From positions 1 to 64,000 of the forward strand of contig JARBUO010000002.1 of NCBI GenBank assembly GCA_029239605.1: a DNA stretch of 64,000 nt. Direction: 5' to 3'. The position numbers and the translations under genes were made by a program. Numbering within the stretch: position 1 is the first letter of the stretch; every line of letters starts with the position of its first letter. Under the pieces are notes generated by a model. The model did not search any database, was not told the DNA's origin, and worked only from the letters and a program-made list of their open reading frames with translations. This document shows, piece by piece, positions 56,546 through 64,000 of the stretch. The DNA comes from Bacillota bacterium. Its GTDB lineage: Bacteria; Bacillota; Clostridia; Peptostreptococcales; Anaerovoracaceae.

Positions 56546-58978
56546 ATGGCGTTTAAAAGCAGCAGAAAAGTCACAGCAGGGGTCTTGACGGCAGCGATGC
56601 TTGCCGGAACATTTTTAACAGGTTTTACATATCAAGACGGAATCGGGAATGTTTATTATCAAACAAAATCCGAAATTTACAACGATACATATTATTATGA
56701 ACAACTTGCCGGGCACAGTGCGAACGGTATTGAAAGGGCATACTACGTTCATGCGGATACGGCAAACACGGATTTGATTCCTTTTGTTTTCGAAGGGGAA
56801 GTAACCGGTATGTATACCATGAACACCATGGTAAGCACCTTGGAAGCCCAGGGCTATAAGGTGGTAGCCGGAATCAACGGGGACCTGTACGATATGGCAT
56901 CAGGTACGCCCAAAGGACTTACGATTCATAACGGCAAAGTGAAAACTTCGGGATATGCACCGGAATATGTTATATCCTTTAATCATAACGGAGAAGCGTC
57001 ATTGGAGCAAGTAAACGTAGGCTATACGCTGAAAGGAATCATCAATGTTCCAACGGTAGTGCCTGTTGACCAGATGGTGACAGATCCTAATTCTCAGGCG
57101 AATAACGGACAAACTTCTGAGGGAGCGGTAACCCCGCCGGCGCAGACTGGTGCGACGCAGACCATCTATGTTCCCACGGAATACACCGCACAGATCGGCT
57201 ACTTTAATGTACCCCACGGCGGGGCGAAGGCCCTTCATTTATTCAACCGGCAATATGCCGCATCCACAAAGACCTCCCAGACATCCGTTGAAGTAATTTT
57301 GGATGCCGGATCCGTAGAAAATGCTGAACCGGGCATTGGCGGTGCTATTACCGCTACGGTTGTGGAAGTGCGAAATGGCAATTTTAATACGCCCATAGGA
57401 GATAATCAACTGGTGCTCTCAGCAGCAGGGGACTCACCCTATGCAGTGCCAATTTCACAGCTGGTTCCGGGAAGCACAGTGGAAATTTCCGTAGATGACT
57501 GGGGCAGTGGCAATTTGAGAAACAGTGCGGAGGCACTTGGTGTATATTATGTTTTGTATAAGGATGGGCAGTATATTACACCGGGTACAAATCTGAATCC
57601 CAGAACGATTATCGGCATTAAGCCTGACGGAAGCATTCTCCTTTATGTTCTGGACGGAAGACAGGCTAATTTTTCAACCGGCCTTGGATTAACAGATGTT
57701 GCAAAACATCTTGTGGCTCTTGGCTGCAGCACCGTTGTAAATATGGACGGCGGCGGTTCTACCGTAATCAATGCCAGAGAGGGCGGACTTGACGCAAAAG
57801 CAGTACAGAAGAATTCTCCTTCCGGCGGGACACAAAGAAAGACTACAAACGGACTCCTTCTTGTTTATAAGGGCGGCGGCGGTTCCGAGGCAGAAAACCT
57901 TCATACCTATGCAGCACAGCCCCTGGCCATGCCTGGTGCAGATATTCAGCTGACAACCTACGCTTCCAATGAAAGCTACGAGCCCGTCAGCCTTCGGAGA
58001 ACTGTCGAATACCGTGTGGATGAGGATCAGACGGAAAGTTCTGTGGACCAGAACGGACTGTTTACTGCTGGAAGCAGCGCAGGAACAGCCATTGTGGCTG
58101 CGGAAAGCGGAGATCTGAAAACAACGGTAGAGATTGGAATTGAAAAGGATATCACATTCACCACCAATGTTCAGAATCTGGTCATCGATCCGGGAAAAAC
58201 TTCGGACGTCAATGTGACTGCAAAATTCGGGTATGCTCCCATTGCAAGCAAGGACAGCCTCTTTAAGTGGAGCTGTGATTCCACCATCGGTACCATCGAT
58301 GCCAACGGTCTTTTTACAGCGACCGCTGAATCGGGTCTGACAGGAAACATTTATGTGGAATACAACGGAACCACAAAAACAATACCGGTCCAGGTTGGCG
58401 CATCCATTGTTGATTTTGCGGATACAAAAACCCACTGGGCGAGAGAATATATCGGTAAACTTGCTGCGAGAGGAATCGTAAACGGTATGGGAGGCAACTA
58501 TTACCTGCCGGATGATTCTCTTACAAGAGCGCAGTTCCTGACCATGCTGGCAAAGACCATCTACGGTCTTGACACGAAACAAACAGTGCCTGCAGGCTTT
58601 ACAGACGTTCCTGAATCAGAATGGTTCTACAGTTACGTAAACTGGGGCTTTGCAAATGGTATTGTAAAGGGTATTGATGAGACCACCTTTGCTCCCAATG
58701 AGAAAATCACAAGAGAGCAGATGGCCATCATGATGAATAACTTTGCGAATTACACAAGCCTGGTTCTTCCGGAGACCAATGCAACGGTGAACTTCACTGA
58801 CGCTTCTCTGATCAGTCCTTGGGCTACGGATTCCGTAACCAAGATTGTATCATCGGGTATCATGGGCGGCTACCCGGAAGGAAATTACATCCCTCAGGGA
58901 AATGCAACAAGAGCAGAGGCAGCTACCGTTGTCTACAAAATGATTAACATCAGAGACAATATCGCAAAGAATAAATAA
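56546..58978 (+). CDS. Secreted phosphodiester glycosidase (NAGPA)-family protein with Big-like domain and three C-terminal SLH domains
   Basis: Signal peptide; IGIKPDGSILLYVLDGRQANFSTGLGLTDVAKHLVALGCSTVVNMDGGGSTV; FADTKTHWAREYIGKLAARGIVNG-type SLH x3. Confidence 0.92.
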   Translation: MAFKSSRKVTAGVLTAAMLAGTFLTGFTYQDGIGNVYYQTKSEIYNDTYYYEQLAGHSANGIERAYYVHADTANTDLIPFVFEGEVTGMYTMNTMVSTLEAQGYKVVAGINGDLYDMASGTPKGLTIHNGKVKTSGYAPEYVISFNHNGEASLEQVNVGYTLKGIINVPTVVPVDQMVTDPNSQANNGQTSEGAVTPPAQTGATQTIYVPTEYTAQIGYFNVPHGGAKALHLFNRQYAASTKTSQTSVEVILDAGSVENAEPGIGGAITATVVEVRNGNFNTPIGDNQLVLSAAGDSPYAVPISQLVPGSTVEISVDDWGSGNLRNSAEALGVYYVLYKDGQYITPGTNLNPRTIIGIKPDGSILLYVLDGRQANFSTGLGLTDVAKHLVALGCSTVVNMDGGGSTVINAREGGLDAKAVQKNSPSGGTQRKTTNGLLLVYKGGGGSEAENLHTYAAQPLAMPGADIQLTTYASNESYEPVSLRRTVEYRVDEDQTESSVDQNGLFTAGSSAGTAIVAAESGDLKTTVEIGIEKDITFTTNVQNLVIDPGKTSDVNVTAKFGYAPIASKDSLFKWSCDSTIGTIDANGLFTATAESGLTGNIYVEYNGTTKTIPVQVGASIVDFADTKTHWAREYIGKLAARGIVNGMGGNYYLPDDSLTRAQFLTMLAKTIYGLDTKQTVPAGFTDVPESEWFYSYVNWGFANGIVKGIDETTFAPNEKITREQMAIMMNNFANYTSLVLPETNATVNFTDASLISPWATDSVTKIVSSGIMGGYPEGNYIPQGNATRAEAATVVYKMINIRDNIAKNK

Positions 58979-61107: not shown

Positions 61108-61204
61108 GAAATAATGTGCCAGCACTTGAATTGAAAACATCGACGAAAAGAAAAGATCGGGGCGCTGGATTTGGATGCCCCGATGTCGTAGCAGGAGGAT
61201 TTCT

Positions 61205-61639
61205 TTGAAAGTAAAGATAAAAAAGCTGAAGGAAACGGCCATTATCCCGTCCAGAGGGAGCGAGTATGCTGCAGGATACGATCTGTTTGCAAATTTGGAT
61301 TCACCACTGGAAATTCCGGCACAAACGACAGCGAAGATTGGGACCGGCTTGTCTGTTTCGATTCCCGAAGGTTTTTTCGGAGGGGTTTTTGCAAGAAGCG
61401 GCCTTGCCTCAAAACAAGGTCTTCGGCCAAGCAATTGTGTTGGTTGTGTCGACAGCGATTATCGCGGTGAGCTCATCGTTGCTTTATACAATGATTCGGA
61501 AGAGAGCAGAATTATCCGGCCCAACGATAGAATTGCGCAGCTGGTGGTCATCCCTTTTCTCGCTGTTGAATTTGAAGAGACTGATGAGTTGGATGAGACC
61601 ATAAGAGGAGAAAAAGGTTTTGGGTCGACAGGAATCTAA
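61205..61639 (+). CDS. dut: dUTP diphosphatase (trimeric), TTG start
   Basis: SEYAAGYDLFANLDSPLEIPA, FARSGLASKQGLRPSNCVGCVDSDYRGELIVALYN, RIAQLVV, RGEKGFGSTGI. Confidence 0.94.
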   Translation: MKVKIKKLKETAIIPSRGSEYAAGYDLFANLDSPLEIPAQTTAKIGTGLSVSIPEGFFGGVFARSGLASKQGLRPSNCVGCVDSDYRGELIVALYNDSEESRIIRPNDRIAQLVVIPFLAVEFEETDELDETIRGEKGFGSTGI

Positions 61640-61844: not shown

Positions 61845-61874
61845 TTGACTTATTGACCACTTGGTTCATATACT
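61845..61874 (+). promoter_or_regulatory. Promoter for catalase-like gene
   Basis: TTGACT - 18 nt - TATACT. Confidence 0.5.
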
Positions 61875-61899: not shown

Positions 61900-63219
61900 A
61901 TGATGAACAAGGAGGAGAGCTCATTAACGGCGGGCAAAAACGGGCCTGTGCTGTTGCAGGACATTCGGCTCATTGGCAAGTTGTCCCGCTTCGTGAGGGG
62001 AAGCATACCTGAGAGGGTGGTCTTTGCAAAGGGAGCGGGCGCACACGGTTTTTTCAGAGTATACATGCCGATGAGCGACTTTACCTCGGCGGCATTTCTT
62101 CAGAATCCCGAAAAGAAAATCCCCGTATTCGTCAGGTTTTCAACGATGACTGGCTCAAAAGGATCAGCGGATACGCTGCGTGATGTGAGAGGTTTTGCGA
62201 CGAAATTTTACACGACGGAAGGAAACTATGACATGATCTGTACCAGCCTTCCTGTCTTTTTTATTCGTGATGCCATGCAATTTCCTGAACTCATGCATGC
62301 ACTGAAACCATCGCCGAAAACGAACCTGACCGAGCCTGCACGGTTTTGGAAATATATTTCGGAAAATCCCGAAGCAACTCATATGACAACATGGCTTTTT
62401 TCAGATCATGGTACGCTGAAAAGTTATCGTCATATGGATGGGTACAGCATGAATACTTACATTTGGGTGTCCGAAAGCGGTAACCGTCAATTTGTCCGGT
62501 ATCACTGGAAGCCCTTGCGCGGCGTAAAGAATATTTCAAGGCAGGAAGCAGAATTTCTGGCCGGTTTCGATCCCGATGCTGCGGCCAGAGATCTCAGCGA
62601 TTCTTTGGAAAGCGGTGAATTGACCGACTACGAGCTGAACGTGCAGCTCATACCATTTGAAAAGCAAAACCAGTACGATTTTGACATACTTGATGCCACG
62701 AAGCTGTGGCCTGAAGATAAAGTGCCGCTCATGAAAGTGGGTAAGATGACGCTGAATAAGGCTCCGGAAGATTATTACGAAGAGGTGGAAAAGGTTGCTT
62801 TCTCGCCTGCAAATATCGTACCCGGCATCGAATTCTCCTTTGATCGCCTGTTACAGGGCAGCATATTTGCTTCTTTGGAGGCCAACAGACATAGGCTGGG
62901 CAGTGACTTTGATGAGTTTCCAGTAAACCAGACAAAATATGCGGTAAATTATGCGGCAGCACATCAAAGAAGGGAACTTTACCCGCCGCTGGAAATTGAA
63001 GGCCCCGTTGACCGAAAAAGAACTCCGAAAGGGGACGATTTCATCCAGGCAGGGGAGCGTTACCGCTCGCTGACTCCAAAGGAGAAAGACCGCCTCGTGG
63101 ATAACATTCTAGACCATCTGATGTTTGTTGATGATGATATTCAAGAAAAAGTAGTGGGATATTTTACCCAAGCAGATCAAGATTTTGGCGCCAGAATCGC
63201 AAGAGGATTGGATTTTTAA
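61900..63219 (+). CDS. Catalase-family (clade heme-catalase fold) protein with apparently degenerate active site
   Basis: SLTAGKNGPVLLQDIRLIGKLSRFVRGSIPERVVFAKGAGAHGFFRV, VFVRFSTMTGSKGSADTLRDVRGFATKFYTTEGNYDM, PVFFIRDAMQFPELMHALK, AFSPANIVPGIEFSFDRLLQG. Confidence 0.93.
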   Translation: MMNKEESSLTAGKNGPVLLQDIRLIGKLSRFVRGSIPERVVFAKGAGAHGFFRVYMPMSDFTSAAFLQNPEKKIPVFVRFSTMTGSKGSADTLRDVRGFATKFYTTEGNYDMICTSLPVFFIRDAMQFPELMHALKPSPKTNLTEPARFWKYISENPEATHMTTWLFSDHGTLKSYRHMDGYSMNTYIWVSESGNRQFVRYHWKPLRGVKNISRQEAEFLAGFDPDAAARDLSDSLESGELTDYELNVQLIPFEKQNQYDFDILDATKLWPEDKVPLMKVGKMTLNKAPEDYYEEVEKVAFSPANIVPGIEFSFDRLLQGSIFASLEANRHRLGSDFDEFPVNQTKYAVNYAAAHQRRELYPPLEIEGPVDRKRTPKGDDFIQAGERYRSLTPKEKDRLVDNILDHLMFVDDDIQEKVVGYFTQADQDFGARIARGLDF

Positions 63220-63259: not shown

Positions 63260-63370
63260 CCCCCAGAAAAAGAGAGTTCAGAATTGACGCTGTTTCAGAG
63301 CTGAATCGATACTTCAGAACAGAATCGCAGCTCAATTCAATTTTGAATTCTCCTGAACGGGGGTCTTTTT
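63260..63370 (+). terminator. Large structured terminator-like element downstream of catalase-like gene
   Basis: CCCCC/GGGGG outer stem, 16-nt stem GAGAGTTCAGAATTGA/TCAATTTTGAATTCTC, inner GAGCTG/CAGCTC, then TCTTTTT. Confidence 0.6.
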
Positions 63371-63587: not shown

Positions 63588-64000
63588 ATGATACTAAGAG
63601 AAGATCTTGAAAAAAGAGAATACGATGTTCTATCCCCTTTTGCGGCTAAGGCAGCAGACACAAGGGGAAGGCAGTATGAGGAAGAGAAGTGCGATGTAAG
63701 AACAGATTATCAAAGGGACAGGGACAGAATTGTTCATTCAAAACCTTTTCGGAGATTGATGCATAAGACCCAGGTGTTCCTGGCACCAGAAGGGGATCAT
63801 TTCAGGACACGGCTGACACACACGCTGGAAGTCTCCCAGATCGCCAGAACCATAGCGAGAGCCCTGGCATTAAATGAAGATCTGACGGAAGCAATTGCAA
63901 TGGGACATGACCTCGGTCACACCCCCTTCGGCCATAACGGGGAGAATTTTCTCAATGAAAGGCATCCAGGCGGTTTCCAGCATAATGTTCAAAGTTTACG
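63588..64000 (+). CDS. dgt: Deoxyguanosinetriphosphate triphosphohydrolase-like HD protein, 3' truncated by window edge
   Basis: [93 protein letters not shown]...[14 protein letters not shown]. Confidence 0.95.

Follow-up and report, generated by a model that had tools for sequence, protein, structure and literature searches.

The window, that is, the whole stretch of 64,000 nucleotides that was analysed, carries close to its end an open reading frame (ORF) for a protein of 439 residues, referred to below as the pseudo-catalase. The ORF has an ATG start, an AGGAGG Shine–Dalgarno sequence a few bases upstream and no internal stop codon (Table 1). In Pfam searches the protein matched Catalase (PF00199) over residues 3–351 (487.8 bits, E=3.2e-146) and Catalase-rel (PF06628) over residues 377–437 (72.6 bits, E=2.9e-20), and the solved structures closest to it by alignment are the catalases 4qol and 1si8. 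To judge from its sequence, the protein is a full-length member of the catalase superfamily (PF00199), as the first-pass annotation of the region had proposed. That annotation also credited the gene with its own promoter and terminator. Candidates for both are present, the latter a terminator-like element at 63349–63363, downstream of the ORF; they add little, however, because the scan yields such sites at about the rate found in shuffled sequence (5 against 3.2 promoter-like and 3 against 2.0 terminator-like sites). The idea that the product is a highly expressed structural protein, prompted by a lower dS that suggested codon bias, was abandoned, as the gene ranks 38th among 50 window genes in codon adaptation.

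Table 1. Positions of the pseudo-catalase gene, its diagnostic codons and its neighbours in the window (codons are numbered along the window protein, residues in bovine catalase numbering where replaced or equivalent)
Feature	Position	Strand	Evidence
dut (dUTPase), conserved upstream neighbour	61175..61639	+	sequence similarity and family recognition, no Pfam scan
Sigma-70-like promoter candidate	61845..61874	+	TTGACT-18-TATACT, 10/12 matches; such sites occur at about chance rate
Pseudo-catalase ORF, 439 aa	61900..63219	+	PF00199 and PF06628 matches; open frame; dN/dS 0.04-0.11
Codon 39, equivalent of Arg71 (propionate side), retained	62014..62016	+	35/41 pseudo-catalases
Codon 42, Phe replacing distal His74	62023..62025	+	alignments to solved catalases, genus and family homologues; cf. 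3hb6
Codon 56, clade-diagnostic Met	62065..62067	+	40/41 pseudo-catalases versus 0/58 true catalases
Codon 79, equivalent of Arg111, retained	62134..62136	+	41/41 pseudo-catalases
Codon 115, Thr replacing distal Asn147	62242..62244	+	alignments to catalases, homologue counts
Codons 218-219, clade-diagnostic Glu-Phe	62551..62556	+	Glu218 41/41 pseudo-catalases versus 9/58 true catalases; Phe219 41/41 versus 0/58
Codon 321, Ser replacing Arg353 (partner of the proximal Tyr)	62860..62862	+	alignments, homologue counts
Codon 325, Ser replacing proximal heme-ligand Tyr357	62872..62874	+	alignments, homologue counts
Codon 332, equivalent of Arg364, retained	62893..62895	+	40/41 pseudo-catalases; unsplit forms 21/21
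Catalase-rel C-terminal helical domain (a coupled ORF of its own where the gene is split)	63028..63210	+	PF06628, residues 377-437; split forms
dgt-type HD domain protein (dGTPase), conserved downstream neighbour	63591..64000, past window end	+	family recognition

The gene order dut–pseudo-catalase–dgt–dnaG–rpoD is shared by the window and most of the other genera among the about 18 that have homologues, where the dut and dgt genes are presumed to be such partly on recognition of their families. Among 24 genomes of the family picked for absence of the pseudo-catalase, a dgt match was present in 23, and wherever dut was visible in genomes without a hit it usually lay directly beside dgt, leaving the site empty. 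In one genome (G021) the gene adjoins the M16 peptidase gene and dut, on the opposite strand. The true catalases of family genomes are located elsewhere, for example in G155, which has both (also L094 and L113). In many genera (loci L084, L090, L091, L093–L096, L100, L109 and L110) a DUF47/PhoU-like gene, mostly together with a gene for a Pit-type phosphate transporter, lies between the pseudo-catalase gene and dgt, possibly reflecting a functional link or merely a shared insertion site. In G224 and G197 (L090 and L091) the place of dut upstream is taken by cobalamin-biosynthesis-like genes (CobD, CobC, CobQ and CbiC types, by sequence), and in G002 (L036:102-6907) a thioredoxin/CcdA- and arsenic-resistance-like block separates the dut-like gene from the pseudo-catalase gene. 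Elsewhere in the window (56546–58978), an SLH-domain protein that also has an NAGPA (phosphodiester glycosidase) domain is encoded between pnp and a polysaccharide-deacetylase-like gene.

Bovine catalase numbering is obtained by adding a constant offset of 32 to the residue number of the window protein. In the catalase alignment, Phe42 stands at the position of the distal His74, while Ser325 and Ser321 occupy those of the proximal heme ligand Tyr357 and of its partner Arg353, all in agreement with the first reading of the sequence. The loss of the distal Asn, claimed at the same time, is borne out too, but the substituting residue is Thr115 and not Ser116, which corresponds to position 148; the triple is F/T/S rather than F/S/S, and this assignment, off by one, is the only correction that the earlier sequence description needs. 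None of the residues by which a monofunctional heme catalase is recognized (His74, Asn147 and Tyr357 with Arg353) is thus present, and on these residues the window protein would not be a catalase and most likely lacks a catalytic heme. Three arginines that bind the heme propionates in catalase structures (Arg71, Arg111 and Arg364) are retained.

Residue counts in the aligned columns of 41 pseudo-catalases and 58 true catalases extend this picture. Asn147 and Arg353 are kept by none of the pseudo-catalases, as against 54 and 57 of the true catalases, respectively. Tyr357, present in 57 of the 58 true catalases, occurs at its column in only two pseudo-catalases, those of G254 and G159, both of which lack Arg353 and Asn147. 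The distal His74 is invariant in true catalases (58/58) and persists in 16 of the 41 pseudo-catalases, the rest having Phe (15), Tyr (8) or Cys (2). Taken as a set, the four lost residues survive far less often than do randomly drawn columns that true catalases conserve (P=0.0008), while the three arginines, at the frequencies listed in Table 1, exceed other conserved columns in retention (P=0.016). Where the gene is split (see below), the Arg364 codon lies in or beside the Shine–Dalgarno sequence of the next ORF; all of the unsplit forms keep this arginine too. Long catalases of 680–750 aa (L016, L129, L162 and L163) keep His and Tyr with a changed distal Asn147 (LSLQFP or LGLSFP), another natural alteration of the heme pocket, and two catalases on IMG/VR contigs (L222 and L230) have Asn in place of the distal His (ERVVNARGC).

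All nine sampled members of the window's genus have the gene, at 68–93% identity, the copy of G003 being a fragment. Each full-length member has Phe at position 74 and has lost the Asn, the Arg and Tyr357. Because these changes recur in every full-length genus member and the losses are family-wide, the pattern goes far beyond chance or a single mutation, and one mutated allele or a sequencing error was rejected as its source. Searches of 299 and 349 genomes of the family (overlapping sets) with pseudo-catalase profiles found homologues in about 45 genomes from about 18 genera. In the order (299 genomes) and the phylum (399 genomes), the matches were mostly catalases of 450–750 residues, with a few short or fragmentary ones; those from outside the family that were aligned over the sites in question all keep His74 and Tyr357, short, weak matches of about 310–360 residues in three phylum genomes being left out of this comparison. 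A search of viral contigs with the pseudo-catalase profile gave no relative, and the matches in plasmid records were all below 60% identity, the listed ones, compared by identity alone, being annotated as catalase or unannotated. In the genomes covered so far, the Tyr-less form appears to be restricted to one bacterial family. Relatives keeping the canonical residues had been named in the first-pass annotation as the observation that would speak against it; the opposite was found, the loss being common to a whole family clade. In the window genome (G000), which is 89.6% complete, no true catalase was found, and the pseudo-catalase gave the sole match.

Selection on the pseudo-catalase is purifying: its dN/dS values (0.04–0.11) lie at about the level of neighbouring genes (M16 peptidase, deacetylase, dgt and dnaG). 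An intact frame and such values are not those of a pseudogene, and the earlier view that the gene is not decaying is strengthened by purifying selection, by a loss shared across the family and by residues invariant in this clade. In the tree, pseudo-catalases and true catalases are parted by one branch (SH-aLRT 100; long-branch warnings for a few rows), and the window's genus is one of those least diverged from true catalases. Pairwise distances track those of dgt (Mantel rho 0.56, 0 of 2000 permutations), as expected for vertical descent. In one clade (15 tree rows, SH-aLRT 99), the gene consists of two ORFs, one for a catalase domain of about 296–326 residues that ends near Arg364 and the other for a Catalase-rel domain of about 50–80 residues; a single fission event accounts for this clade. 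The junctions contain an agaggagg-like Shine–Dalgarno sequence within the first ORF, most of them also have an overlap (ATGA, TTGA or TAATG), and the two ORFs are predicted to be translationally coupled. Since this coupling is kept across genera, the junctions are unlike decay. The ‘stops’ within several family homologues, considered at first as marks of pseudogenes, turned out to be such junctions, with their Shine–Dalgarno sequences and ATGA or TTGA overlaps.

An AlphaFold model based on a 25-sequence alignment that included viral-contig catalases (mean pLDDT 74, pTM 0.76) matched catalases in Foldseek, with a TM score of 0.82 to 4qol at 42% identity. Modelling, suggested in the first-pass annotation, thus returns the catalase fold, although the match is partly circular because catalase homologues formed the AlphaFold alignment. 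The Foldseek matches included the H54F mutant of Proteus mirabilis catalase (3hb6; see below). A catalase fold devoid of heme is plausible in view of the KatA apoprotein of Enterococcus faecalis, for which a soluble, monomeric state lacking heme is possible (PMC4192493).

The best overall explanation of these data is probably that the protein is a pseudoenzyme from the monofunctional catalase family which works without heme and would act by binding. It would have a single origin, in the common ancestor of the family or earlier, in a normal heme catalase of the monofunctional type lying between dut and dgt, and would have kept the catalase fold while losing the iron chemistry with the distal His and Asn, the proximal ligand Tyr and the Arg paired with it. 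That the protein is a conserved, functional pseudoenzyme seems very probable: the catalytic residues are lost, yet the gene is widely kept and under purifying selection, as is expected of such proteins. That it is free of heme, a possibility raised in the first-pass annotation, appears probable, notwithstanding the 16 homologues that still have the distal His. We further suggest that the old heme pocket, with its three nearly invariant carboxylate-binding arginines (Arg39, Arg79 and Arg332 of the window protein), may hold an acidic ligand or a partner protein with no metal ligated, with the C-terminal helical domain as an associated subunit or lid, and that the protein would work as a sensor, chaperone or scaffold rather than by turnover. 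Structural, sensory or chaperone roles, or a new chemistry, were also the candidate functions put forward in the first-pass annotation. An acidic ligand in this pocket is a tentative proposal; Arg111 and Arg364 may have been kept for structural reasons, and the neighbouring dut, dgt, dnaG and rpoD genes give no pointer to a ligand.

Alternatively, the protein may be a pure scaffold or protein–protein adaptor, of which only the beta-barrel fold matters, the arginines and glycines being fold residues and no small ligand being bound. This would agree with the composition of the fully retained columns, mostly Gly, Phe, Thr, Ala and Trp, i.e. core or turn residues, with the solubility of the KatA apoprotein and with the position of the clade-diagnostic Met56, Glu218 and Phe219, none of which is known to contact heme in catalases. 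Such a role is conceivable rather than probable, since the arginines on the propionate side exceed other conserved columns in retention, as noted above.

It is unlikely that heme or another metallotetrapyrrole is still bound through the propionate arginines, the proximal ligand being either missing or non-canonical, and that the protein serves as a heme store, a heme sensor or an unusual peroxidase. The arginines are indeed retained, His or Cys is found at position 357 in 15 of the 41 pseudo-catalases, and cobalamin-like genes lie upstream in two genomes. However, the window protein has Ser at position 357, and across a single genus (g89, six species sampled) this position reads Y/H/H/C/L/Y; because it varies so freely within a genus, it is not kept as an axial ligand. 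Nor did the columns of the clade contain any new conserved His or Cys, and no pseudo-catalase keeps Arg353 or Asn147. A search of 44 genomes, including 41 from the source family, gave no recognizable ferrochelatase (PF00762). This absence alone proves nothing about heme, because three relatives from the order (G038, G347 and G403) have true catalases and likewise no recognizable ferrochelatase; heme import or another route of synthesis could account for it. Finally, the view that the gene is a slowly decaying catalase remnant whose loss is pending might draw on the many family genomes in which dut and dgt directly adjoin without it, and on the strongly diverged sequences of distant genera, some without the N-terminal arm, but it is very improbable, being already largely refuted by the dN/dS values and the persistence in about 18 genera, besides the lack of stops in the window gene and its genus, the conserved coupled fission junctions and the new invariant residues.

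Few enzymes have been studied as much as the catalases, and some catalase-fold proteins, such as coral allene oxide synthase and SrpA or the minimal catalase-related peroxidases, have been diverted from H2O2 dismutation while keeping heme and the proximal Tyr. In the pseudo-catalases, by contrast, this Tyr is not kept. To our knowledge, the present lineage would be the first among the monofunctional catalases to lack heme naturally, and no description of an inactive, pseudo- or heme-less catalase family was found in the open-access papers searched. With the monofunctional heme catalases of Bacillus pumilus (4qol) and E. faecalis (KatA, 1si8), the window protein shares the whole fold at 42% identity, the Catalase-rel domain, the propionate arginines and Ser113; it differs from them in lacking the distal His and Asn, Arg353 and the proximal Tyr, and in a shorter linker between the barrel and the helical domain. 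Other pseudo-catalases depart further, with loss of the N-terminal arm in other genera and a split gene in one clade. The same replacement of the distal His by Phe is found in the H54F form of Proteus mirabilis catalase (PDB 3hb6), an ‘inactive’ mutant according to its PDB title. The latter, however, is a heme catalase altered at one position in the laboratory, whereas the natural family has also lost the proximal side.

Owing to the overwhelming Pfam match, automated annotation would label these genes ‘catalase’, wrongly implying a peroxide defence which the protein probably cannot provide. The natural series found at one locus, from a near-normal catalase sequence to a split and strongly diverged form, makes the loss of a cofactor under continued selection observable, and it offers a test of where the fold needs heme. 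The chances seem evenly balanced that a catalase fold stripped of its heme has become a family-wide ligand-binding or regulatory protein, held at a fixed site beside genes of nucleotide sanitation and of replication and transcription, and turned by fission into a two-subunit complex in one lineage. Should a ligand be found, it would mean a new use of an ancient fold.
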